DNA from: an uncultured Spirochaeta sp.
GTDB lineage: Bacteria; Spirochaetota; Spirochaetia; DTKZ01
DNA: 41,137 bases
Assembly: GCA_937140905.1 (NCBI GenBank)
Contig: CAKZQO010000297.1
Coordinates: 1-41,137 of the forward strand
Reading direction: 5' to 3'
The translations under genes were made by a program, and so were the position numbers. The notes under the pieces were generated by a model, which had not been told where the DNA came from, searched no databases, and saw only the letters and a list, made by a program, of their open reading frames with translations. Below, piece after piece: positions 7,995 to 31,156 of the stretch; position 1 is the stretch's first letter; each line of letters starts with the position of its first letter.

Positions 7995-8008
7995 GTGGAA
8001 CCTCTTGT

Positions 8009-9001
8009 TTATTTTCTGTACGTACTCTTATACCATTCTACCGTTCGTTCTATAGCGACTTCCCAATTGTATGGCACATAACCGTTGCAAATATCCATAA
8101 TCGGCGATAAATCAAAAACGTACTCCGTCGTAATATTGTTCAATCTAAAACTAGTCAGAGGAACATTTTTCCATCCTAAAAACTTTAACAAATCTCCTGT
8201 TTTGGCTAAAGATTTCGCCGCCCATAAAGGCATTTTACGAATCTTTGGAGCATTCAATTTTTCACGCACCATCTCCGCAAAAGTATATAGGTCAGTTGGT
8301 TCTGGATCTCCTACGTAAAAAGTCTTTTCATGAACTTTTTCAGAAGGAGCAAGTAAAATACTATAGATCTGATAAGCTATATTTTCTACATATCCCATGG
8401 ATCTTCTATAATGCCCTCTTCCGATATGAAAATACAATCCTTTTTCTATCGCTTTAAAAAAATTAAGGTAAGGTTCTCCCATCCAAGGGCCCCATACAGA
8501 TATAGGTCTAATGATTGTCCATTCGAATGGAAGATTTTTCCAATTTCTCACTATTTTTTCTCCCTCTACTTTGCTCATACCGTAAGCAGTAGATGGCATA
8601 TAATCTGTATCGTATTTTGGTATATAACCCATTTTGCATACTAGTAAAGATGATGTAAATATAACTCTTTTTAAATTTTCAGGGTATGCTTCATTTAATT
8701 TAATTAAGGCGTTTATGAGGTTTATTACACCATCTATATTAGGTGCGAATTCATTTATATCGGTAATCGCATGTGCCCCTGTTTTTGCAGCTAAATGAAC
8801 TATATATTCTGGTTTAAAGTCTACTACTAATCTTTCTAGTTCTTTATAATTCATTATATTACATTCTTTCCAATATTCGTAATGATCCTTTTTAAAAGGA
8901 GGTTTAATATCAATGTTTAAAATTTTATCTTTTTTGATCAACGCATAGTCAACAAAATTAGTTCCCACAAAACCAGATCCACCAGTTACTATAATTCTCA
9001 T
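8009..9001 (-). CDS. NAD-dependent epimerase/dehydratase family protein
   Basis: A 330-residue extended SDR beginning directly with the Rossmann motif MRIIVTGGSGFVGTNFV. The region VHLAAKTGAHA and the catalytic STAYGMSKVEGE (YxxxK) follow, with RPISVWGPWMGEPY as the substrate-side loop. It probably modifies a nucleotide-activated sugar for the polysaccharide. Only 20 bp separate it from the upstream glycosyltransferase and 14 bp from the downstream oxidoreductase, so cotranscription is likely. Codon use is more AT-rich than in wecB, part of a gradient across the cluster. Substrate unknown. Confidence 0.85.
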   Translation of the reverse strand: MRIIVTGGSGFVGTNFVDYALIKKDKILNIDIKPPFKKDHYEYWKECNIMNYKELERLVVDFKPEYIVHLAAKTGAHAITDINEFAPNIDGVINLINALIKLNEAYPENLKRVIFTSSLLVCKMGYIPKYDTDYMPSTAYGMSKVEGEKIVRNWKNLPFEWTIIRPISVWGPWMGEPYLNFFKAIEKGLYFHIGRGHYRRSMGYVENIAYQIYSILLAPSEKVHEKTFYVGDPEPTDLYTFAEMVREKLNAPKIRKMPLWAAKSLAKTGDLLKFLGWKNVPLTSFRLNNITTEYVFDLSPIMDICNGYVPYNWEVAIERTVEWYKSTYRK

Positions 9002-9021
9002 AGTATCACCATAGGTTAATA

Positions 9022-10143
9022 TTATGCCAGTTTTTCAAACTCTTCAACTAGTTTTTTTGCAACAACTGTTATATTGTAATGACTTTGGATGAATTTTCTT
9101 GAATCTCTACTACATTTAGTTCTAATGGCATTTATTATTTTATATGCTAAGTCGTGCTCCGAATATGGATCGAAATATATTGCATAATCTTTAGCAATTT
9201 CATTAAAAGGTATAAATAAATCATTATATTTCATCCCATCCGAAGCTATTGTGGGAATATTAAAATACAAAGACTCAATTAAAGGCAACCCAAATGTTTC
9301 CTCTAATGAAGGGATTACAAAACAATCGGCGTTACTGTAAAAATCGAATATTTCTGCATAACTCACCACACCCTGAAAAATAACATCCTTATCTATTTTA
9401 ATACTTTTAACAATGCTTAATAAATATTGGTAATAATCAGGATAACAATTAGTATTTCCAACTATAATTAATTTGCCATCATATAATTCTTTGGATTTTA
9501 TAAAAGCAAAAGCTTTAATTAAAACTTCTATATTTTTATGAGGCGAAACAATAGCTACTGTTAATATATAGTTAAATGAGTATTTTTTTATGTTATTTAC
9601 TTTAAACTTCTCAAAATCCAATCCATGTCTTAACAGAAAACATTTTTTATCAGGAATATTATATATTTTTTTTATGATTTTCTTAGATCTTTCTGAACAA
9701 AAACGAACTTTTGATGCTTTTTTGCTTGAGAACCATCCTAAACAAAAAAGCAATTTATTTCTTATCTTTTCCTTAAAAGACCACTTAAATATTATTTTAG
9801 AAAAAGGGTTTGTATTCTCAATAAAAAGAACAACTTTACATGGTGCAAATAAAGAAGTAACATTCCCTACAGAGTATAATATATCTATACTATTTAAATA
9901 AATATAGAATGGGAGCACAATCTGTTCGTACAAAACTCGCAAATATGGATTTGATGGACAATTTTGTAAGATAATTTTTACAAAACTATCAGGAACAAAA
10001 TTAATAATATATTTTTGTTCGGAACTTACAAAAATATAATATTTGTTTTTTTTATCTATTTGATCCAATGCTTTCATTAGTATCTGGAAAACACTAATAC
10101 CAGCACCAGCACGAGCACTAAGAGCATTAAGAGCAATGTTCAT
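9022..10143 (-). CDS. Family 4 glycosyltransferase
   Basis: A 373-residue GT-B enzyme. The C-terminal donor site carries the EX7E pattern in PSLEETFGLPLIESLYF, preceded by VSPHKNIEVLIKAF (loop plus helix) and FQGVVSYAEIFDFYSNAD. The N-terminus MNIALNALSARAGAGIS is typical of GT4 rhamnosyl/mannosyl-type transferases, though the sugar cannot be assigned. AAGGA precedes the ATG at about 8 nt. It is the first clearly functional gene in the wecB-containing run, and its strongly AT-rich codons (many Ile, Lys and Asn) set it apart from the distal genes. The promoter for the run should lie in 10144-10350, where I see only a weak AT-rich -10. Confidence 0.88.
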   Translation of the reverse strand: MNIALNALSARAGAGISVFQILMKALDQIDKKNKYYIFVSSEQKYIINFVPDSFVKIILQNCPSNPYLRVLYEQIVLPFYIYLNSIDILYSVGNVTSLFAPCKVVLFIENTNPFSKIIFKWSFKEKIRNKLLFCLGWFSSKKASKVRFCSERSKKIIKKIYNIPDKKCFLLRHGLDFEKFKVNNIKKYSFNYILTVAIVSPHKNIEVLIKAFAFIKSKELYDGKLIIVGNTNCYPDYYQYLLSIVKSIKIDKDVIFQGVVSYAEIFDFYSNADCFVIPSLEETFGLPLIESLYFNIPTIASDGMKYNDLFIPFNEIAKDYAIYFDPYSEHDLAYKIINAIRTKCSRDSRKFIQSHYNITVVAKKLVEEFEKLA

Positions 10144-10249
10144 TTGAAAATCCTTGTTTTAATTTTAACAAATTCGATACCCATGAGGTGAAGCTTGAAT
10201 AACATCATGGATTCTACCACAAAACAGCTTTATAGCACAGGAGGTGCGT

Positions 10250-10296
10250 TGCCTCATCGAAATACTAACCCAACTAAAGATAATGCCTCATCGAAA
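10250..10296 (+). repeat. Short direct repeat next to a transposase remnant
   Basis: TGCCTCATCGAAA occurs at 10250-10262 and again at 10284-10296, each followed within 2-4 bp by CTAACCC. The pair sits just upstream of a transposase gene fragment and could be subterminal transposase-binding repeats of a lost element. The rest of 10144-10350 shows no gene. Confidence 0.45.
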
Positions 10297-10350
10297 AATC
10301 TAACCCTGAGACACTCCTTCCCCGTACCTTGGTATTGGGGGAGGATCATC

Positions 10351-10536
10351 ATGGGGTTACAGATGAAGGAAAAACAACGCATTACGGCACAGGTCGCTCC
10401 CCGTTACCAACGGGGAAGCAAGAAGGACAAACAGAGGATTCTCTACGAGTTTATCCACCTGACGGGCTACCACCGCAAGTACGCGATCCACCTACTGGGT
10501 ACCTTGTGTAAGAAATGCTTCCAAATATTTCGTTGA
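10351..10536 (+). pseudogene. N-terminal remnant of a transposase/integrase gene
   Basis: A short frame starts MGLQMKEKQRITAQVAPRY behind a GGGGGAGGATC ribosome binding site. It continues through GSKKDKQRILYEF and GYHRKYAIHLLGTL, then turns into unrelated residues and stops. The start resembles the N-terminus of rve-type (integrase-core) transposases that open with a similar helix-turn-helix segment. About 50 residues remain; the catalytic core is absent. It is read as the scar of an element that bordered the polysaccharide cluster. The exact IS family is not certain. Confidence 0.55.
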
Positions 10537-10797
10537 AGCAACTGCTGTTAGTAATAGGGCAAATAAACCTATGTTATAATCTGTTTTTTAGTTTGCATTT
10601 ACAAAGTCTTTATGCGTTCGAGTTAAAAGGTTTAAGGCTAGTTAAAAGGAATGTAGAAGGGTCACAAGGTAGGGTAAAAAAACCGACATAAGGTGAGAAT
10701 ATAAGAGGTGTCTTAAACATTTTTTAAAATATAAAAACATTGATCTATCGTCTGCTAAGACAGAATACATAATTTTTAGGGGCGCCCAAGTAGTAGT

Positions 10798-11982
10798 TCA
10801 CTTTCTTAATTGAGGGGAATGGCTATCTTTCCGCGGTTCTAGATTAAATAAGTAAGAAAAAAGAAATGGCAAAATCAAATTTATTGGATAAACTTCAGTT
10901 ATTATTGTTGTGGATCCAAATATCAATAATATATAAAATAAAGATATAATTTCTTTTTTTGCTTTTAAATAAGAATATATAAAAAGCAAAACTAATGGCA
11001 AAAATAGCGCAAAACCACCCAATAGACCTAAATTTCCTAGGATTGCTGCATAAAAAGAATCCATAATAAACATTTCACCTGAAATTAAACTATATGTATT
11101 TGTATATTTACCGAAGTTATTCGAAAAAAATCCAGTATTTTTTAAAATATTAAATAATATTTTAAATCTTGTTCCTCCAGAAATATTTATATATTCTTCT
11201 CTGAAATAATTTACGAAAAACAATGAAGATAGAATAATAGGAAAAATCATTATAAAATGCAAATAAATTCTTTTTTCTGAAACTATATACAATAAAGACT
11301 GAATAAAAAATACCATTATACCTGTTCCACTCATTGTTAAAATAATACTTATAAAATAAATAATATATTTAATAATATTTATTTTTTTAATTAAAAATAA
11401 ATGATTAAACAGCGTGATATTAATAAAAAAAGCAGAAGTATTAGGCAACAAGAAAAACCCAGGATTTCTCAATGTATATCCCCAAAAATTTAATCCAAAC
11501 CATTTTAAAGCCATAAAAAATTGAATTATTTGAATAATAAAATTTAGATAAAATAATAAATCTATATATTTTATAAATAGTATTATATTAGTTTTATAGT
11601 TTATATTAAGTAATAATAAAATTACTAATATCGGTAACAAAAAACGTAATCCGCTGAATATTTCTAATAATCCAACACTTGATAAAATTATATTGAAAAA
11701 TATCAAATTTAAAAAGCCGATAACATTCAATAATAATAAAAATTTTATTTTATTTTTTAAAATATATATTGAGCTTATAAATATTATTAAAAATATAATA
11801 ATATCCTTGATTGCTTTTAGATAAATCGGAGTAATTATAACTGCTTGAGATATTAATTCATTTTTCATAAGTGATAAAACTTCACCGATATTCATAAAAG
11901 GTGTTATTATAATACCAAATATTAACAATTTATTTAACATTTCATTTATATTTATTTTTGTGATTTTATTTTTATAGTGCAT
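10798..11982 (-). CDS. Wzy-like O-antigen/polysaccharide polymerase (polytopic membrane protein)
   Basis: A 394-residue, extremely hydrophobic protein with about ten to eleven membrane segments and one larger hydrophilic loop (about 265-310, containing FREEYINISGGTRFKI). That is the usual architecture of Wzy polymerases and of O-antigen ligases; no sequence motif settles which. It would act at the periplasmic face, joining lipid-linked repeat units. Codons are overwhelmingly A/T-ending (Ile, Lys, Asn, Phe, Leu-TTA), far from the roughly 50% GC of the flanking genes, suggesting horizontal acquisition. No convincing ribosome binding site precedes ATG 11982; an internal ATG at codon 15 is an alternative. 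It is isolated between transposase remnants. No Wzx flippase is visible in the window. Confidence 0.7.
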   Translation of the reverse strand: MHYKNKITKININEMLNKLLIFGIIITPFMNIGEVLSLMKNELISQAVIITPIYLKAIKDIIIFLIIFISSIYILKNKIKFLLLLNVIGFLNLIFFNIILSSVGLLEIFSGLRFLLPILVILLLLNINYKTNIILFIKYIDLLFYLNFIIQIIQFFMALKWFGLNFWGYTLRNPGFFLLPNTSAFFINITLFNHLFLIKKINIIKYIIYFISIILTMSGTGIMVFFIQSLLYIVSEKRIYLHFIMIFPIILSSLFFVNYFREEYINISGGTRFKILFNILKNTGFFSNNFGKYTNTYSLISGEMFIMDSFYAAILGNLGLLGGFALFLPLVLLFIYSYLKAKKEIISLFYILLIFGSTTIITEVYPINLILPFLFSYLFNLEPRKDSHSPQLRK

Positions 11983-12123
11983 TATAACAACTATGGAAAT
12001 ATTTTTTTATATCTAATATCCCAAATTAATTGTGGGCACCTTGAAAAACCATGTTTTCCGTCTGATCCGACAACAGATCACAATTTTTCTTCTCCGGAAA
12101 ACCTTTCAATAATGATCCATCCC

Positions 12124-14034: not shown

Positions 14035-14844
14035 TCATGCAGCCTCCTCCAGAGACTGCTCCTGTGCAAAGTGTGATCCATACACCTCATCGGGTGTACG
14101 ATACTCCAGGGACTGGTGGAACCGTTGCCCATTGTAAAAGGCAAAGTACCGCTTCAGCCCTTCCTTCAATTCCCCCATCGTTTGGTAGTCTGAAAGATAA
14201 ATATCCTCGTACTTCAGACTCCTCCAGAACCGTTCCACCCAGATGTTGTCCCGTACCCGATCCCTGCCATCCATGCTGATCTGAATCTTATGCCGCTCTA
14301 ACACTGAGATAAATGCTTCCGAGGTGAACTGACTCCCCTGGTCGGTGTTGAAGATCGCCGGTACTCCCCACACCTGAATCGCCTCCTCCAGAGCTGAAAT
14401 ACAGAACTCCGCATCTAAGGTGTTTGACACCCTCCAACTTAATACCTTTCGGGAGTACAGATCCAGAATCACCACCAGATACACGTACCCTCCCGCCAAG
14501 CGCACATACGTGATATCCGTTGCCCACACCTGGTTCGGCAGCCATATCTTCTTATCCCTCAACACATACGGATACTTCCTGTGTTCCTTACAGGCAATCG
14601 ATAACCGCCTTCTCGCATAAATCGCCTGTAGCCCTGCCCGGCGCATGATCCGCCTCACCTGTTTCTCCGTCACCCCAAAGCTTGATATCGCTTTCGCTAC
14701 TTTCCGATACCCGTAGAACGGATGCCGGTCCATCACCTCAAGAATTGCCTGTAATACCTGCATCTCCCATTCCTCGGCCTTACGGTGAGGTTGGTAGTAA
14801 TACGCCGAACGGCTCATCCCCAACAGCTCACACTGCTCCTCCAT
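14035..14844 (-). CDS. IS3-family transposase OrfB (DDE integrase core)
   Basis: A 269-residue integrase-type catalytic subunit. An HTH_21 region (EEQCELLGMSRSAYYYQPHR, then YRKVAKAI) precedes the DDE core: ATDITYVRLAGGYVYLVVILD, FNTDQGSQFTS and DNIWVERFWRSLKYED. All three acidic residues are present and the frame is uninterrupted. The functional protein is expected to be an OrfA-OrfB fusion made by -1 frameshifting, because the orfB frame stays open upstream of the ATG to the slippery site (KVQATIRERASAIEPEHPL). Confidence 0.92.
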   Translation of the reverse strand: MEEQCELLGMSRSAYYYQPHRKAEEWEMQVLQAILEVMDRHPFYGYRKVAKAISSFGVTEKQVRRIMRRAGLQAIYARRRLSIACKEHRKYPYVLRDKKIWLPNQVWATDITYVRLAGGYVYLVVILDLYSRKVLSWRVSNTLDAEFCISALEEAIQVWGVPAIFNTDQGSQFTSEAFISVLERHKIQISMDGRDRVRDNIWVERFWRSLKYEDIYLSDYQTMGELKEGLKRYFAFYNGQRFHQSLEYRTPDEVYGSHFAQEQSLEEAA

Positions 14845-23347: not shown

Positions 23348-24277
23348 TTACTGCGCCTGCAACGTAAACGTGATGATGCAAGAATAATCTCCAGCCGTAG
23401 GGAAGTCCAAAGTGTCCACCGTGAACACGAAGGAGTACCGGACTCCTACGTAGGCAGTGGGAGACGCGCTAGCGGCGACGGTGTAGCTCTGGGCGGGGGT
23501 TAAAGAAATGGGGGTTCCATTCAGGGTTACCCGTAGAGGAACGGTACTCGTGTCCGCAGGGTCCACGATCTGTAGGGCGTTCCCGTACTGGGAAACCATG
23601 GAAAGGGTATAGATTTGATTAGACCGTACCATCAGGTCTACCGCGCGGGTCTTTCCCTCTTCCAGAATTCCGAAATCTAGGGTAGAAGCGGTGGAACCCG
23701 CGCTAAAGGGAGAGCCCGGGGGCACGAGGGATAGTTCCATCACCGCGGGCATGGTGATCCGGACCTGAAACGAGCGCTGAGCTTTCTGAGTATAGGAAGC
23801 AAGCGTCCCCTGATACAGGGTTAGATTGATCGTATCCGTGAAGGTGCCCGCCGGTGGGAACTGTCCCGGAGGGAGAATCACCACAAAGGAGAGATCCTGG
23901 GTGGTCCATCCACTGTCGTCGGGAAAACTTCCCCGAAGCACCTCTTGGGGTGTAGGGTTGGCCGATAGGTCCTTAAGAACGTTTCTAGTATCCGCGGCAT
24001 CGTAAATCTGATATGCCAACACGCCTCCACCTGTCCCAGAGGCCAGACGGGTTTCGAAGGAGCCGGAACTACCGGCGGAAAAAGTGACGAAATACTCTGT
24101 AGGCCCTCCCCGGTGCCGCACGCTAAAAGTGCCGGTCAGCACGAGTTCAGCGTCTAAGGTGTACGTTCCCGTGATTCGATTCGGTACGTTTTGGAACAGT
24201 AACTGCTGGGACCATCCGAGGGCCACACAGAGAGGGAACAAAAAGACCATCAGTAACAAACTCTTACTTCTCGTCAT
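23348..24277 (-). CDS. Chaperone-usher pilus tip/minor subunit, two-domain (SCPU-like)
   Basis: A 309-residue secreted protein with a signal peptide (KSLLLMVFLFPLCVALGWSQ). It is all beta-strand-like. An N-terminal half (about 25-170) is joined to a C-terminal half (about 180-309) whose pattern (ELSLVPP, TLDFGILEEGKTRAVDLMV) resembles the pilin of this operon and the spore-coat-U (SCPU) family. Two-domain subunits in this position normally form the adhesive tip, with the N-terminal domain as receptor binder and the C-terminal domain as donor-complementable pilin. Its start overlaps the usher stop by 14 bp, and it is last in the operon. The tip role is inference. Confidence 0.7.
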   Translation of the reverse strand: MTRSKSLLLMVFLFPLCVALGWSQQLLFQNVPNRITGTYTLDAELVLTGTFSVRHRGGPTEYFVTFSAGSSGSFETRLASGTGGGVLAYQIYDAADTRNVLKDLSANPTPQEVLRGSFPDDSGWTTQDLSFVVILPPGQFPPAGTFTDTINLTLYQGTLASYTQKAQRSFQVRITMPAVMELSLVPPGSPFSAGSTASTLDFGILEEGKTRAVDLMVRSNQIYTLSMVSQYGNALQIVDPADTSTVPLRVTLNGTPISLTPAQSYTVAASASPTAYVGVRYSFVFTVDTLDFPTAGDYSCIITFTLQAQ

Positions 24278-26678
24278 GGTTTACCTCCAGCGTCCCCAAT
24301 GAAACGAACCCAGAGCTCTCCGGTGGAATTCGAATCTTTATGGAAGAATCGATCCCCGCAACTCGAAGTTCGTACTCGCCGGGAACAAGCCCGTACGCTT
24401 GGAACATCCCTGTTTCATCCGTGAAGAACGGTACAGGCGGAACTGCTTCCTTTCCCGCGGGAGCTTGACCTTTCCATGAGATGGTTCCCCCGCGATACGC
24501 GATGGGCGCTCCACTTCTAAATCGTACCGTTCCTTCCACAAACACGGTAGGCTTTGTTCCCGCTCGGATGACAGTTCCACTTCGGTAGCTAGGTCGCAGG
24601 ACCCGGACGTTTTCCCCTACTTCGGATCCGGCCGGAGCTTGGGGCGCGTCTATCAAGAGCTGGGTTTTCTCGTAGGAGTTTAGAAGGAGCAAACCAGGGC
24701 TTTTACTGCTAGCGGGAATGTCGCCACTGCCCGTGCTGCTAACCCAGAGGGTTTCATTCTCCAAGCTTTCAATGGGAACCACGAGGGCGAAACTGTCGTA
24801 AATGGGTTTGGAGAGCGCCCATGTTCCATCGGCATACGCGACTGAGGTTCGTCCCTGCGCGGTAAGACGGCTAGCCACATACTCGGAACTTCCTTTGTAG
24901 AAGGTCTGTATGAGGGATCCTTCGAAGAAGCGGTTGCCGTAGGATCCCCCTGCGCGGAACGAGGCGGGGCGTTCCTTTTCGAGGGGGAATCCTTCCACCA
25001 CTCCATCCACCACCAACGTGCCTTCCCGCACCTCCGGCCGTACCTGCACGCTGGCACTGGCGCTTCCTTCCGAGAGGGAAGAGGTGAAACTTGAAGTTCT
25101 ACGCCCTTCCGGCGAGGTGATGGTGAGGGAGAGGGACCCCCGAGTGTCTAAAGCTCCTGATTCCGAACGGGTTACGCTGACGCTCAACAGGAAGTTGACT
25201 CCCTTCCTTAGGGTCTGGAGAGCCGTCAAGGAAAAGAAGGACTTATTCTCTCCTTCCCGGGCAAACTGGTATGTTCCCGACACCCCAAGACTCAACCCGA
25301 AGGGAAAGGGTTGACTAATCATAGCGCTCAACTCCCAGGAGGGGGGAGAAGAAGCATCCAATGGTTCGAACGCCGTGTGGAACCGGCTTCCCTTATACTG
25401 GGCTCCAAACCCCACCATGGGATAGGTCTTCCGTCCAGGGAAAGAAATCCGGTACTTTAACGAAGCCGCCCAATCTTCCATCGAATACTCCCGAAAGGAC
25501 AAGGCGAAATCCCCCATCAATATTCCAAGTGGTAGCGCGAAAAGTGTTTCGATACCGCCCAATTGTCTAGAGGGGTTTCCCTGTAAGTTCGCGCCAAAGG
25601 TAAACCAGGGATTGAGCCCCCACAGGAACGATCCCTGAACCGTGGGAACGTCCGGATCCCACCGGGGGATTCCCCCTCCCAGGGAATAGGAACCCTCTCC
25701 TTCCGGTTGCATCCTTCCATCGAAGGCCACGAACCGTTCCAGCGTGCGCTCGGGAGTATTCTCCTCTTGAAGGACGATCCGCACGTCGTTCACACCGGTC
25801 ACGTAGGGAAAATTCAACAGTCGATGCCTACCGGGTTCCAACGTCAGGGTTCGAATCAGTTGATCGTTCACGTACACTAAGACCGTTGCCGGCCGTTCCA
25901 GGATTAATTCCTCGCGGCTTAAGGTTCGGTCCTTACGGAAAAGAGAAGCGTCCCGAAGGATCGATATCCCTTCGAGGATAACGGGAGATTGAAACCCCTG
26001 CACCGCGATTCCCAATGTTCCTAGGCTGAGCCGCATGGAATGGTGTTCAAAATCCTTCACCAGGCGTTCGTACTCGAAGGTGAACTCAGGTTCGGGATAC
26101 GTTCCTGCAGATACTCCCGCCTCCAACACCCAACCCTTATAGTTCATCGTGGGAGAAGCGGAAAAGAACAGGGGAACGGTGGTAGGTGTCTTTGCGTACG
26201 GTTCGTACCAGATAGAGGCAGAAGAACTCAAGTTCAAGTATCCGCTAAACTCCTTGGGAAAATCTGTCTCGGCTCTAGTGATGGTAGACTGACCGGATAG
26301 GATGATATCCTGGGATACTCGCAACTCAGGGGGAATCGAGACTCGAAGGGCGAGAAGCTGCCTGTCGAAGGTCATCTCCAGACCCAAAGCCGAAACCCGT
26401 TCTATCTCTACCCATCCCGCCCGCGGCCCTTCTTTGATCCCCTCCCATACTTCTTCCTTTAACCTGCCTTTAAGGAACTTTTTCAACTCTTCCAGGGGGA
26501 GATAGATCTTCCCCTCTTCCGTGATCATTGTTTCTATCTGTCCTACCCGTAATCCTTCCACGGCTAGATCAATGGGAACGCGCAATTCCCGTTCCTGGGC
26601 GCCTCCCCGCTCGAGTGGTAACCCGAAAAGAAGGAGGAGAAGGGGCACCGTTCCGAGGGGATTAGCGAACCGCCTCAT
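24264..26678 (-). CDS. Fimbrial outer-membrane usher (FimD/PapC-like)
   Basis: An 804-residue outer-membrane assembly platform. After a signal peptide (to about residue 27, GGAQE), the N-terminal chaperone-binding domain (LPLEELKKFLKGRLKEEVW) is followed by a beta-barrel region. That region includes the family segment LTLEPGRHRLLNFPYVTGVNDV, and ERTLERFVAFD marks the plug/early barrel. The C-terminal domain (TVRFRSGAPIAYRGG; FFTDETGMFQAYGLVPGEYEL) has the carboxypeptidase-regulatory-like fold seen at usher ends. The length matches the family. It overlaps the chaperone gene by 17 bp and the tip gene by 14 bp, so translation is tightly coupled. Confidence 0.88.
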   Translation of the reverse strand: MRRFANPLGTVPLLLLLFGLPLERGGAQERELRVPIDLAVEGLRVGQIETMITEEGKIYLPLEELKKFLKGRLKEEVWEGIKEGPRAGWVEIERVSALGLEMTFDRQLLALRVSIPPELRVSQDIILSGQSTITRAETDFPKEFSGYLNLSSSASIWYEPYAKTPTTVPLFFSASPTMNYKGWVLEAGVSAGTYPEPEFTFEYERLVKDFEHHSMRLSLGTLGIAVQGFQSPVILEGISILRDASLFRKDRTLSREELILERPATVLVYVNDQLIRTLTLEPGRHRLLNFPYVTGVNDVRIVLQEENTPERTLERFVAFDGRMQPEGEGSYSLGGGIPRWDPDVPTVQGSFLWGLNPWFTFGANLQGNPSRQLGGIETLFALPLGILMGDFALSFREYSMEDWAASLKYRISFPGRKTYPMVGFGAQYKGSRFHTAFEPLDASSPPSWELSAMISQPFPFGLSLGVSGTYQFAREGENKSFFSLTALQTLRKGVNFLLSVSVTRSESGALDTRGSLSLTITSPEGRRTSSFTSSLSEGSASASVQVRPEVREGTLVVDGVVEGFPLEKERPASFRAGGSYGNRFFEGSLIQTFYKGSSEYVASRLTAQGRTSVAYADGTWALSKPIYDSFALVVPIESLENETLWVSSTGSGDIPASSKSPGLLLLNSYEKTQLLIDAPQAPAGSEVGENVRVLRPSYRSGTVIRAGTKPTVFVEGTVRFRSGAPIAYRGGTISWKGQAPAGKEAVPPVPFFTDETGMFQAYGLVPGEYELRVAGIDSSIKIRIPPESSGFVSLGTLEVNHDEK

Positions 26679-27435
26679 ACTGGAAATTCACTTCGAGGGC
26701 GGAAGGATCCACGTCCTGAAGTTCGGGAGGGAGGGGCAAAAAGACAGTCCGTTTGGAACCGGCAAGAAGGTTTTCCCCGGAGATCCCTCGCAAAGAGTCT
26801 CCTTCGAAAACTAGTTTCCTTCCAATGGCCGAAACTTCGATCGTTAAATCCCCTAGGATGGTATGGGCTGTACCCTGGTTCTGGAATACCAGGAAGATCC
26901 CTTTCCTTCCTTCCTTGTCAGTACCCACGGAAGTTTGGATGATCCGGACTTCGGCCTTCGCGTGAGAGGGCAACACGTACAGGGAGCCTAGATACCGGGT
27001 AAGGATTCGTATGGATCCCCCCGCTCGTTTATTCTCGCCGAAATCCACGGGGAGTTGTTCCACTAGAAGCCGGAAAGCCAACTCTTGGGAAGGATTGGCG
27101 TCCCCTTTCCATTGGACCCGCACCAGTTGAATGCCCTTTGGTCCAATCACTACCCTAGAGGGATACACGGTGAACAGTTCATCGGCAGGGGAGTTGACTT
27201 CCCACCCTTCCCTATCCTCTGTCCGGGTTAGGATCCGTATACGTACCGCGATGGATTCCGTGTAAGAATTGGACAATCGAAGAGTGACTACCGATCTAGG
27301 CCCTGAGGGCTCCAAATCCGCGGTGATCGGCTCGAGGTTGAACGCGGAAAGGGGAAGGCTCACGGCAATCCATAGGATTACCGCCACAAACCATCGCTTC
27401 CCGGCTTTTCCGCTATTCCCCCGCAAGAGCCTCAT
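26662..27435 (-). CDS. PapD-like periplasmic pilus chaperone
   Basis: A 257-residue chaperone that would cap pilin subunits by donor-strand complementation and deliver them to the usher. A signal peptide (VAVILWIAVSLPLSAF) is followed by a first Ig domain with the G1-strand motif FTVYPSRVVIGPKGIQLVRVQW and ELAFRLLVEQLPV. The second Ig domain contains GIFLVFQNQGTAHTILGDL. This matches archaic (Csu-type) chaperones better than classical FimC, by motif recall. Its ATG overlaps the pilin stop (ATGA). Confidence 0.85.
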   Translation of the reverse strand: MRLLRGNSGKAGKRWFVAVILWIAVSLPLSAFNLEPITADLEPSGPRSVVTLRLSNSYTESIAVRIRILTRTEDREGWEVNSPADELFTVYPSRVVIGPKGIQLVRVQWKGDANPSQELAFRLLVEQLPVDFGENKRAGGSIRILTRYLGSLYVLPSHAKAEVRIIQTSVGTDKEGRKGIFLVFQNQGTAHTILGDLTIEVSAIGRKLVFEGDSLRGISGENLLAGSKRTVFLPLPPELQDVDPSALEVNFQYEAVR

Positions 27436-27932
27436 TTCGCCGTGATGGTAAACGTCAGAGTGTCGCTATAGGAGTCTTCGTACAGGAAAGCGCCCGTGTA
27501 GGAGACTCTAACCTCCCTCGACTCCCCCGCTCCCGTGGTTCGCGTGTTGGAATCGGTGACGATCGCGGATCCCGAGCTGAAGGTAACCGTCGTACCTCCA
27601 TACGTGAGGGCATAGGAGAGGGTGTCCGCATTTCCCGGGTCGGTACTCTTGAAATAGGGCTGCGTAGCGCCACTCGAAACCGCGTTGAGGGATTCCACCG
27701 AAACCGTGTATCCACCCTTCTTGTTGCTCCGTTCCACTACCGTTGCCACGGCCGTATTGGTGTCTACCGACAAGTCCAAAGCGGAAGCGGCGGGCAGAGA
27801 CGATACCGTAATGCTAAGGATGGGCGGCACCGTGCCCGTCAAGGTGAGGGTTCCCGATGTCTGCGCGATCAAGGGAAGGGAAGCGAAGATTGCCACGATT
27901 AACGAAAAGAGAAACACTTTCTTTCTATTCAT
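27432..27932 (-). CDS. Major pilin subunit of chaperone-usher pilus
   Basis: A 166-residue secreted subunit. The signal peptide MNRKKVFLFSLIVAIFASLPLIAQ is followed by TSGTLTLTGTVPPILSITV and an all-beta Ser/Thr/Gly-rich body ending SDTLTFTITAK. The alternating hydrophobic C-terminal strand is as expected for donor-strand exchange. I prefer ATG 27932 (AGGAGG 9 nt upstream); an upstream in-frame ATG at 27998 would precede the signal peptide and overlap the regulator. There is no cysteine. It is the first gene of the operon, so it should be the most abundant subunit. A TATAAT-like box (TATATATAATAG) precedes it; no -24/-12 element is seen there. Confidence 0.75.
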   Translation of the reverse strand: MNRKKVFLFSLIVAIFASLPLIAQTSGTLTLTGTVPPILSITVSSLPAASALDLSVDTNTAVATVVERSNKKGGYTVSVESLNAVSSGATQPYFKSTDPGNADTLSYALTYGGTTVTFSSGSAIVTDSNTRTTGAGESREVRVSYTGAFLYEDSYSDTLTFTITAK

Positions 27933-27994
27933 ATACTTTTTCCTCCTGCTATTATATATAGCACAATTTGCATAGAAAAACAAATAATCTTTAT

Positions 27995-29629
27995 TCATTC
28001 CTGCGCTTCGTCTTTTTCTAATAGATCCGGGAATCGCTCCTTCAGGGCCTTTCGGAAGGCCGGAGGATTGATCCCTAACAACAGAGCCGCTTTTTCCCGA
28101 TTCCCTCCCGTCTTTCGCAACGCCTGTTCGTAGTAGGACCGCTCCGCCTGGTACAGGAAAGCTCGCAGGTCCATCCCTTCCTCAGGGATCTGGGTGCGGA
28201 ATGCGAACCGATCGGAGGGGGTCGTCAGAGTCCCGCGAAGGGGCGGAGGCAGGTGTTCTGGTTTCAGTTCCTCCCCCCGGGAAGAAGCGCAGAGGGCGAT
28301 GATGGTGTTCTGGAGTTCCCGGACATTTCCCGGCCAGTGATACGAGTAGAAAAGATCCAATACTTCCTTTGAGAGGAACTTGTTTTCCTTGTACTTTTGG
28401 TTCCATTCTTCCACGAACCTCTTGGCCAGGAGAGAGATGTCTGATTTCCGTTCCCGCAGGGGCGGCAGATGAATGGTTACCTGGTTCAGCCGATCGTACA
28501 GGTCCCTCCGAAAGGTCCCCTTTTCCAGCATGGCCTCGAGGTCCCGGTTCGTGGCGGCCAACACCCGCACATCGATTCGGTATTCCTGTTCCGAGCCCAC
28601 GGGGTGTACCGTTCTCTCTTGCAGAACTCGTAATAGCTTTGGCTGTACTTCTAACGGTAAGTCTCCCACCTCATCCAAAAGGATCGTTCCTCCATCGGCG
28701 GCCCGGAACTTTCCCGTCCGATCCCGGGTAGCGCCGGTAAAAGCCCCCCGCGCGTGACCAAAGAGTTCGCTTTCCACGAGGCTAGGGGTAAGGGCGGAGC
28801 AGTTGATCGCCACGAAGGGTTTGTTCTTCCTTGGGCTCCTTGCGTGGATCAGACGAGCGATAAGTTCCTTACCCGTGCCCGGCTCTCCCCGGAGAATCAC
28901 GGACACGTCGGAGTACCGGGCAACGGTGAGGGCTTTATTCAGGGCTTCCCGAAATGTGGCCGAAGTATTCGATTCCAGCAACGACCGAACGTCCGGCTGT
29001 AAAGACAGACCCTCTCGTAGCTCTTCTTCCTGTTCTTCAAGAACCCGGGAGCCGTTATAGACAGGGCCTAAGGGCAGTACTCGCGGAAGGGTCATTTGGC
29101 TGAGTGCGATCTCCCGCACCCGGTAGGAGCCTCCTCCGAAACGGGGGGGGATCCCCTGCAGGAGGGTGGCGCGCAGGTCCCCGGAGCGGGCAAGAAGGAA
29201 CCAACAGGTTTGCATCTGCGGGGTCCCAGGGTCCAATAGCACGTAGAGATCCCTGTCGGTGTCGGGTATGCCTCGCCCACCCACCACCTGAAGTGTCCTT
29301 AAAGCGGCGGAGAGTTTCTTGTAGATCTCCTCATAGTCTATCACCGAATCCAACTCTAGAAGGTGATGGGTAAAGTTGCACTTCTTCCCCCACTGCCGGA
29401 ACACATGCTCCACACCCAACGCCCGTTCCAGGTAGGCTGGCCCCGTGCAAAAAAGGATCACTTCATTAAATGCGCGAACGGATAAAAGAGAGAGCACGGG
29501 TCCGTACGGCTCATCCCGGGATTCCCAGTCCTGGGATTCGGATCCATTGGCGTCGTTGTACGGGTCCCGGTTCCCCACGAAACTAAGTAGCACGGTCCGA
29601 TACTTCTTATCTTTTCCCACGAACTTCAT
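27995..29629 (-). CDS. RtcR-like sigma-54 activator with N-terminal CARF-type sensor domain
   Basis: A 544-residue bacterial enhancer-binding protein. Residues about 11-180 resemble the CARF domain of RtcR: VLLSFVGNRDPY near the start, then DPGTPQMQTCWFLLARSG (133-150) and LLQGIPPRF, paralleling RtcR GT..xQxCWFLLA...Q..PP. The sigma-54 AAA+ domain has Walker A GEPGTGKE (248-255), the sigma-54 contact loop GAFTGA (295-300) and Walker B ILLDE (316-320). A Fis-type helix-turn-helix ends the protein (GNREKAALLLGINPPAFRKAL). CARF domains bind cyclic oligoadenylate or related RNA-derived nucleotides. RtcR controls rtcAB RNA repair, but no rtcA or rtcB is present here. ATG 29629 lacks a good ribosome binding site. 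It lies directly upstream of the pilus operon and diverges from a sigma-54 promoter. Confidence 0.88.
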   Translation of the reverse strand: MKFVGKDKKYRTVLLSFVGNRDPYNDANGSESQDWESRDEPYGPVLSLLSVRAFNEVILFCTGPAYLERALGVEHVFRQWGKKCNFTHHLLELDSVIDYEEIYKKLSAALRTLQVVGGRGIPDTDRDLYVLLDPGTPQMQTCWFLLARSGDLRATLLQGIPPRFGGGSYRVREIALSQMTLPRVLPLGPVYNGSRVLEEQEEELREGLSLQPDVRSLLESNTSATFREALNKALTVARYSDVSVILRGEPGTGKELIARLIHARSPRKNKPFVAINCSALTPSLVESELFGHARGAFTGATRDRTGKFRAADGGTILLDEVGDLPLEVQPKLLRVLQERTVHPVGSEQEYRIDVRVLAATNRDLEAMLEKGTFRRDLYDRLNQVTIHLPPLRERKSDISLLAKRFVEEWNQKYKENKFLSKEVLDLFYSYHWPGNVRELQNTIIALCASSRGEELKPEHLPPPLRGTLTTPSDRFAFRTQIPEEGMDLRAFLYQAERSYYEQALRKTGGNREKAALLLGINPPAFRKALKERFPDLLEKDEAQE

Positions 29630-29746: not shown

Positions 29747-29762
29747 TGGCACACAGTTTGCT
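29747..29762 (+). promoter_or_regulatory. Consensus sigma-54 (-24/-12) promoter
   Basis: TGGCACACAGTTTGCT fits the TGGCACR-N4-TTGCW consensus at every fixed position, with exactly 10 bp between GG and GC. Transcription should start near 29773, giving a leader of about 30 nt for the PEGA lipoprotein gene. Confidence 0.88.
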
Positions 29763-29801: not shown

Positions 29802-30221
29802 ATGAAGCACACTACTATCGTCACAAAAGCCACTGGCGGATTGGCCTTGGCGTTCGCGATGGGGATTCTGTCCCTTCTGTTTTTCGCCGGCTGCGCCACC
29901 CTGTTCAAAGGCACCTCTCAGAAAGTAGGCTACAGTTCCGATCCTTCGGGCGCCAAGGTGTACGTGAACGGCCAGCTTGTGGGGACTACCCCGTTCGAAC
30001 TGGAAATGAAGGCGAACCGAACTTACACCATCGAGTTCCGGAAGGAAGGGTATGAGAACAAGACTGTGGTGTTGAACAACTCTATCGGCGCGGGCTGGAT
30101 TATCCTCGACGTGCTGGGTGGCTTTATACCGGTTATCATAGACGCCGCCACCGGTGCCTGGTATTCCCTAGACCAGGATCACGTGAACGCGGCCTTAGAA
30201 GCGCAGAAAGCGGGTAAATAA
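29802..30221 (+). CDS. PEGA-domain lipoprotein
   Basis: A 139-residue lipoprotein. The signal peptide ends with the lipobox LFFAGC, so it is lipidated and sits at a membrane. The PEGA domain reads SDPSGAKVYVNGQLVGTTPF, then YTIEFRKEGYENKTVVL. A hydrophobic tail segment (GWIILDVLGGFIPVIIDAATG) is common in small PEGA lipoproteins. ATG 29802 (GGGAGG about 6 nt upstream) is preferred to an in-frame ATG at 29700 that lies upstream of the sigma-54 promoter. PEGA domains are surface beta-modules of unclear function. It is monocistronic, between a perfect -24/-12 promoter and a strong terminator. Confidence 0.88.
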   Translation: MKHTTIVTKATGGLALAFAMGILSLLFFAGCATLFKGTSQKVGYSSDPSGAKVYVNGQLVGTTPFELEMKANRTYTIEFRKEGYENKTVVLNNSIGAGWIILDVLGGFIPVIIDAATGAWYSLDQDHVNAALEAQKAGK

Positions 30222-30259: not shown

Positions 30260-30286
30260 AGCTTGACTCCACGGCTCCGCTTTCCT

Positions 30287-31156
30287 ATGCTGAACATGAT
30301 GGGGTTAGAATTGGATACTCTAATTAAGCGGTTACAGTCTTATTTCGCAGGCCGAAGGGATGTGGCTTTCGCGTTTCTCTTTGGCTCCTACGCGAAAGGA
30401 CTCCAACGAGACGTTTCCGACTTAGATGTAGGGGTATATTTCTTTCCAAAAGGCGAACTCTGGGAATTGGAGGAGGACATAGAGTATCCCGAGGAAACGA
30501 ACATTTGGGGGGATATAGACGCTCTTGCTGGAAAAGAGATCGATCTTATTGTCCTGAATAGGGCATCTGCCCGGCTCGTATACACTATCCTTACGGAAGG
30601 AGTTCCACTTGTTGTCCATTCTCCCTCTCTCTGTTGGAAAATCCTCCTGCAGGCTGGCCGACTGGTGGAAGAATACCTTGATTTCACCGTCTCTTATATA
30701 GAAGTAAAGAATCGTTCAACTTCCCTTTCCGCCTTGGATAAAGAGCGAATCATCAGGATCCTTGACTTTCTGAAATCTGAACTTCGGGATGCTCCCCAAT
30801 TCGTCTCCATCACGTATGAAGAGTATACAATTCAACCATCCCTTCGAAGAAACCTGGAACGGTGGGTGGAAAATTTGGTAAACGCTTCCCTCGATATCGC
30901 TAAGATCCTCCTAGCTTCTGAAAAACAACCCCTTCCCCAGACCTATCGGGAAACCCTCAAACGGTTACAAACCCTGCCGGGGTTCCAAGGGGAATGGGCG
31001 GAAAAATTGGCCGATAATACTCGGCTTCGCAATATCCTGGCTCACGAATATCTTGACATTCGTTTCCGTTATCTAGTTGAGTTCGCTTCTAGCGCTGAAA
31101 TGGTTTATTCAAAATTAATGGAAGCGGCGCATCAATTCGTATATCATCAGGATTAG
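30287..31156 (+). CDS. Single-chain MNT-HepT fusion (nucleotidyltransferase antitoxin + HEPN toxin)
   Basis: A 290-residue protein (counted from ATG 30287) joining two domains usually encoded by separate toxin-antitoxin genes. The N-terminal minimal nucleotidyltransferase has the exact GS-X10-DXD motif (GSYAKGLQRDVSDLD, about 33-47) and a third acidic residue in KEIDLIVLN. The C-terminal HepT/DUF86 domain carries RNILAHEY (248-255), exactly the RX4HXY HEPN RNase motif. In separate MNT/HepT pairs the antitoxin AMPylates that tyrosine and silences the RNase. The start is uncertain: TTG 30263 and ATG 30296/30299 are also possible, and none has a clear ribosome binding site. It follows the lipoprotein terminator. 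Confidence 0.85.
   Translation: MLNMMGLELDTLIKRLQSYFAGRRDVAFAFLFGSYAKGLQRDVSDLDVGVYFFPKGELWELEEDIEYPEETNIWGDIDALAGKEIDLIVLNRASARLVYTILTEGVPLVVHSPSLCWKILLQAGRLVEEYLDFTVSYIEVKNRSTSLSALDKERIIRILDFLKSELRDAPQFVSITYEEYTIQPSLRRNLERWVENLVNASLDIAKILLASEKQPLPQTYRETLKRLQTLPGFQGEWAEKLADNTRLRNILAHEYLDIRFRYLVEFASSAEMVYSKLMEAAHQFVYHQD

Follow-up and report, generated by a model that had tools for sequence, protein, structure and literature searches.

A probable chaperone-usher pilus operon of archaic grade in an uncultured spirochaete and its relatives

Gene content and organization of the locus

The window analyzed in this study is the whole stretch of 41,137 nucleotides of contig CAKZQO010000297.1 (assembly GCA_937140905.1) from an uncultured Spirochaeta sp. 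On the minus strand, from position 23348 to 27932, it contains four intact open reading frames, which encode a pilin, a PapD-type chaperone, an usher, and a two-domain SCPU tip protein, i.e., the components of a chaperone-usher system (Table 1). Neighboring genes overlap throughout, by 4 bp between the pilin and chaperone genes, by 17 bp between the chaperone and usher genes, and by 14 bp between the usher and tip genes. The start codon of the pilin gene is an ATG at 27932, which is preceded by an AGGAGG site and followed by a signal peptide; the reading frame can be read back to 27998. A first-pass annotation had described a complete, intact, and overlapping pilin-chaperone-usher-tip operon at this place, and both its coordinates and its anatomy were right. 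The interpretation as a chaperone-usher system is backed by profile homology to FimD/PapC and to CsuC, CsuE, and CsuA/B, and by fold comparison.

The four genes occur in identical order on a contig of a congener (L031), with proteins that are 73-78% identical, and the order is also found in many other spirochaetes. Therefore, the arrangement is not due to chance. A codon comparison with the congener G002 yielded ratios of nonsynonymous to synonymous substitution rates (dN/dS) of 0.06-0.13 for the operon genes, at a dS near or beyond saturation. The operon is under purifying selection, and hence it is maintained.

Table 1. Features of the pilus locus and its surroundings, with positions in the window
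Feature	Position	Strand	Length or remarks
Major pilin (donor-strand-exchange type subunit, without cysteine)	27432..27932	-	166 aa
Periplasmic PapD-type chaperone	26662..27435	-	257 aa
Outer-membrane usher	24264..26678	-	804 aa
Two-domain SCPU tip subunit (presumed adhesin)	23348..24277	-	309 aa
Predicted sigma-70 type promoter of the pilus operon, TTGTTT-N17-TATATA	27955..27983	-	inferred; missed by a simple consensus scan
RtcR-like sigma-54 activator gene	27995..29629	-	PF00158 1.7e-65, HTH_8 1.9e-8, RtcR PF06956 3.9e-5
Perfect -24/-12 (sigma-54) promoter site TGGCACACAGTTTGCT	29747..29762	+	only site with 0 mismatches in the window
PEGA-domain lipoprotein gene	29802-30221	+	divergent from the activator gene

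The usher and the chaperone

Homologs of the usher were found in 39 of 198 related genomes, and most of them span nearly its full length. With a family profile made from 25 homologous sequences of related genomes, the best matches in the PDB were FimD (1.2e-11), PapC (5.4e-11), and the F1 capsule-anchoring protein (4e-6). The Pfam model Usher PF00577 is matched individually by 41 of 51 usher relatives. An AlphaFold2 model, based on an alignment of the window usher with fetched relatives, reached a mean predicted local distance difference test (pLDDT) value of 88.6. It contains an N-terminal domain (residues ~30-126), a barrel (~144-616) with a plug-like insert (~260-320), and two C-terminal domains (~619-706 and 712-800). 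In a Foldseek comparison ranks 1 to 19 were all occupied by FimD and PapC, with a best E-value of 1.3e-36 for FimD, while the next matches were at 1e-7; the best superposition had a template modeling (TM) score of about 0.65 over 830 columns, at about 14% identity. Judged by profile and model, the protein is an usher with a plugged barrel, a periplasmic N-terminal domain, and C-terminal domains.

The chaperone matches PF00345 (PapD_N) above the cut-off, at 8.7e-6, and 18 of 20 chaperone relatives match it at an E-value of 0.01. The profile of the chaperone family matched CsuC best (1.2e-5), followed by EcpB (2e-3) and one unplaced fimbrial chaperone (0.016); no other match was below an E-value of 1. 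The alignment with CsuC extends into both domains, although Tyr196 of CsuC falls outside the aligned part. Two residues, P92 and R122, are invariant in 20 of 20 sequences and align to P59 and R89 of CsuC. Chaperones of the archaic and alternative classes have been described as distinguished by an arginine of the Arg89 type (PMC4654587).

The subunits and the lack of disulphides

The tip protein matches SCPU PF05229 above the cut-off, at 8.4e-9, and 21 of 22 tip relatives also match. The tip-family profile found CsuE (2.7e-7), the SCPU-domain protein 8cio (6.4e-5), and CsuA/B (7e-4). The structural model (pLDDT 93.3) folds like proteins of the CsuE/CfaB type, and the closest structures according to Foldseek are CfaE/CfaB fusions, CsuE, and FimH. 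Its C-terminal half and the major pilin are homologs (hhalign probability 99.4, E-value 1.3e-21). The tip protein thus consists of an adhesin-like N-terminal SCPU domain joined to a C-terminal pilin domain, as is common for tip subunits. SCPU was matched by only two of 12 pilin relatives. A C-terminal strand motif is conserved in the subunits; in the pilin this is the YSDTLTFTITAK strand, which is conserved in family A3.

The pilin has no cysteine, and the tip protein has one, located in its last strand (GDYSCIITFTLQAQ); therefore, an intrachain disulphide is impossible in the tip protein. The earlier description of the subunits as cysteine-free thus holds for the pilin and fails for the tip protein, while its point that disulphides do not stabilize them stands. 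The last 135 residues of every spirochaete pilin that could be delimited are devoid of cysteines, whereas most proteobacterial and some cyanobacterial pilins in the comparison carry at least two. Proteins of the DsbA, DsbB, and VKOR families were not detected in the host genome by searches that were positive in several control genomes. It is likely that the spirochaete pilin fold is built without disulphides because the machinery to form them is missing in the host lineages.

Distribution and history in the Spirochaetia

The host had been taken for a probable spirochaete, and this is borne out by three matches to FlaA (PF04620) in its genome, a family that is absent from all 14 control genomes, and by two congeners that share the activator-pilin junction. 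One of these, G002 (CALKLC01, an uncultured Spirochaetales bacterium), has the activator gene that precedes the operon in the window and the whole operon in the same order. In the other, G001, the TRAP, PEGA, activator, and pilin genes are in synteny up to the end of the contig. An apparent loss of the usher in G001 was rejected, because the contig ends within the pilin gene with adapter-like sequence and thus reflects an assembly break.

Among 391 genomes sampled from the Spirochaetia, 103 (about a quarter) have the usher, and these belong to 34 of 128 genera. The system is therefore widespread in the Spirochaetia and not a rarity of one organism, and its range is under-reported. A careful tree was calculated for 47 ushers from seven phyla, from which FimD and EcpC were left out due to their very long branches in a quick tree, in which both were too distant for placement. 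A phylogeny of the usher had been suggested as a check in the first-pass annotation, and in the careful tree the named spirochaete ushers stand on one side of a branch, as one clade, with a support of 100/99 and in 100% of the bootstrap trees.

A binning error, or a recent transfer from a proteobacterium or cyanobacterium, could be suspected as the origin of the contig because the genome is a draft of 324 contigs with 3.6% contamination, and because relatives of the chaperone are present in Alphaproteobacteria and Cyanobacteria. However, the operon with the same activator in G002, the activator-pilin junction with syntenic PEGA and TRAP genes in G001, and the single clade of spirochaete ushers make this explanation extremely improbable. 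The synteny in congeners, the number of genomes with an usher, the single clade, and the dN/dS ratios show that the operon is old in the group and not a contamination; in many Spirochaetia it has very probably been passed on mostly by vertical descent.

Further arrangements were observed in relatives. In family f9 (L028, L029, L143, L144, L146) the usher homologs have about 1,100 amino acids. A transmembrane-like segment stands at their start, followed, before the usher part, by a long linker that is proline-rich or acidic and has a conserved (W/F)ADFFV-like motif. Their genes lie beside V-type ATPase-like genes and a chaperone gene, without adjacent subunit genes; these ushers are possibly tethered to the inner membrane. 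At L147:169-11516 the genes for a chaperone and a long usher are followed by an expanded array of subunits, about ten small secreted proteins whose last strands are subunit-like. A duplicated chaperone-subunit set is present at L145:3632-11363 (f45), with three pilin-like genes, a chaperone, a further subunit, a second chaperone, an usher, and a tip protein.

Comparison with known chaperone-usher systems

The system is a chaperone-usher system, and it resembles most the archaic (sigma) systems Csu of Acinetobacter and CupE of Pseudomonas. It shares with them the order pilin-chaperone-usher-two-domain SCPU tip, the profile matches of the tip protein to CsuE, 8cio, and CsuA/B and of the chaperone to CsuC as best match, and the invariant counterparts of Pro59 and Arg89. 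Both the SCPU-type subunits (the tip protein via PF05229, the pilin via its homology to the tip C-terminal domain) and these chaperone residues (20 of 20) are features of the sigma class. In contrast, only one pilin gene is present here instead of several, the usher is too divergent for PF00577, and the spirochaete chaperones differ at a position that is discussed below. Another difference concerns the conserved cysteine pair of archaic pilins, which forms a disulphide (PMC4654587, PMC10104325): this pair was not found in any spirochaete pilin recovered. With the FimD/PapC systems of type 1 and P pili the spirochaete system shares the full-length usher fold with N-terminal domain, plugged barrel, and two C-terminal domains, but in the structural alignment the ushers are only ~14% identical, and the chaperone and the subunits have no profile match to the classical proteins. 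The alternative (alpha) ECP and CFA/I systems have in common with it the non-classical chaperone arginine, a weak match to EcpB, and a superposition of the tip model on CfaE-CfaB and CfaB fusions; they differ from it in that its subunits are of the SCPU type, and in the quick tree the branch of EcpC is very long. Therefore, the system appears to be of archaic grade rather than a certified sigma member: it is nearest to the sigma class by chaperone, subunits, and gene order, but the cysteine pair described as invariant in sigma pilins is missing, and the usher trees do not include CsuD or CupE. We conclude that the four genes very probably encode a minimal, non-classical chaperone-usher pilus of this grade, which is an old and mostly vertical trait of many Spirochaetia.

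Several observations weigh against this conclusion. As a single sequence the usher has no match to any usher model of Pfam, including PF00577, or of NCBIfam. Taken by itself, the pilin gives no significant match to a family or in the PDB, and a search of the PDB with its profile was also negative; the pilin is recognized only via its homology to the C-terminal half of the tip protein and its position in the operon. The chaperone family has no clear counterpart of CsuC Arg174, the position being mostly occupied by isoleucine or leucine, with a conserved histidine two residues earlier. The sequences in the tree were drawn via one chaperone motif, so that other usher types may be missing. Lastly, the pilus itself is predicted from its genes, as are export across the spirochaete outer membrane and adhesion.

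For the usher, a PF00577 search of the host genome also gave no match, and a phmmer search of the PDB with the single sequence gave noise only. An insignificant usher score had been named in the first-pass annotation as a result that would refute its interpretation, and for the single sequence against Pfam the score is indeed insignificant, but the evidence of the family profile and the structure outweighs it. The PF00577 test is too blunt, because the family profile, the 41 matching relatives, and the structural model all give the FimD/PapC fold; the miss in the host genome is a false negative, since the usher is too divergent for this model. Because standard Pfam screens miss members like this one, the range of ushers is under-counted.

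It is conceivable, though doubtful, that the chaperone-usher systems of spirochaetes form an ancient class of their own, which belongs neither to sigma nor to another recognized class, with disulphide-free subunits that suit Dsb-less anaerobes, an own anchor in chaperone domain 2, and offshoots that have an inner-membrane-anchored usher with a long periplasmic linker.

Proposed assembly and biological significance

According to the proposed mechanism, the signal peptides read from the sequences would take the subunits and the chaperone into the periplasm. Conservation suggests that the PapD-type chaperone would cap the incomplete immunoglobulin (Ig) fold of each subunit, whose C-terminal strand would be anchored via Arg122, the counterpart of CsuC Arg89. 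By analogy to FimD and Csu, the N-terminal domain of the usher would take up the chaperone-subunit complexes, the tip protein first, and the plugged barrel, which has the FimD fold in the model, would thread the fiber out by donor-strand exchange. The CsuE-like architecture is consistent with a pilin that would form a thin, flexible fiber and an SCPU tip domain that would adhere to surfaces or to other cells. The stability of the fiber would not depend on disulphides.

The system might also export an Ig-fold coat, a capsule-like layer or short fibrils similar to the F1 antigen, instead of adhesive pili, as such machinery is used for products of either type. A single pilin gene and the thin and flexible nature of archaic fibers would fit such a product, but the tip protein with its N-terminal SCPU and C-terminal pilin domain has the architecture of pili with a tip adhesin of the CsuE/FimH kind, so that we consider a coat improbable and favor an adhesive pilus.

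Spirochaetes swim with periplasmic flagella and, to our knowledge, they are usually described without surface pili. The chaperone-usher system would give these spirochaetes a route to surface attachment and biofilms that is testable in cultured relatives; Rectinema subterraneum is a cultured environmental species that carries it. The archaic class is assigned in structural papers to Proteobacteria, Cyanobacteria, and Deinococcus-Thermus (PMC4654587, PMC10104325), and with the spirochaete systems non-classical chaperone-usher pili reach beyond these phyla. They are also natural examples that work without the conserved disulphide. In the literature searched for ushers of Treponema, Sphaerochaeta, and spirochaetes no description of a spirochaete chaperone-usher operon was found. 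Fimbriae and pili of Spirochaeta JC202 are mentioned in a genome note, though not in detail (PMC4319587), and a table of a survey from 2016 lists Spirochaetae among the phyla of the fimbrial usher family TC 1.B.11, while the part of that survey considered here discusses no operon, subunits or spirochaete ushers (PMC4827864). Thus, the earlier remark that such pili are little described in spirochaetes agrees with the lack of an operon description, but in view of this table entry it does not hold in an absolute sense.

Transcription of the operon and neighboring genes

Directly 5' of the pilin gene a TTGTTT-N16/17-TATATA motif is present in the three congeners G000, G001, and G002. Because this motif is common to all three and the perfect sigma-54 site faces the PEGA gene, the pilus operon probably has a separate promoter of the housekeeping (sigma-70) type. 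Read-through from the activator gene is possible.

The activator scored 23.6 bits with PF06956 (cut-off 23.1) and 309.9 of the 650 bits needed for the NCBIfam RtcR equivalog. The rtcBA RNA repair operon does not lie beside it; its neighbors are the pilus genes and the PEGA lipoprotein gene. The activator family is present in 23 of 198 related genomes. A role as the switch of the pilus operon, by which pili would be made in response to RNA damage or CARF-ligand signals, was considered first, since in all three congeners the activator gene lies immediately 5' of the pilin gene with the same orientation, RpoN is present in the host genome, and a shared transcript is possible. It was set aside because the 63-bp gap before the pilin gene contains no GG-N10-GC site and the only perfect -24/-12 site points away from the operon, 40 bp before the ATG of the divergent PEGA gene. 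The same divergent pair is found in G001 (L132), with a one-mismatch sigma-54 site 43 bp before the ATG. In addition, in other families the activator is encoded on contigs other than that of the usher, or in genomes without an usher. A function as pilus switch is thus unlikely, and the activator is probably a neighbor rather than a part or regulator of the pilus system.

Three further observations concern the remainder of the window. Downstream of the PEGA gene, at 30263-31156 (+), a nucleotidyltransferase (MNT, Polbeta) is fused to a HepT-like (HEPN) domain; MNT and HepT usually occur as separate partners in a toxin-antitoxin pair, and the fusion gene is missing at this place in G001. By eye, an integrase-like sequence was recognized at 14035-14844 (-), an open reading frame for an IS3-type transposase. 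The region 8001-12000 has a G+C content of 27-30% in glycosyltransferase- and polymerase-like genes, compared to about 53-55% in the pilus region, and these are probably imported surface polysaccharide genes.

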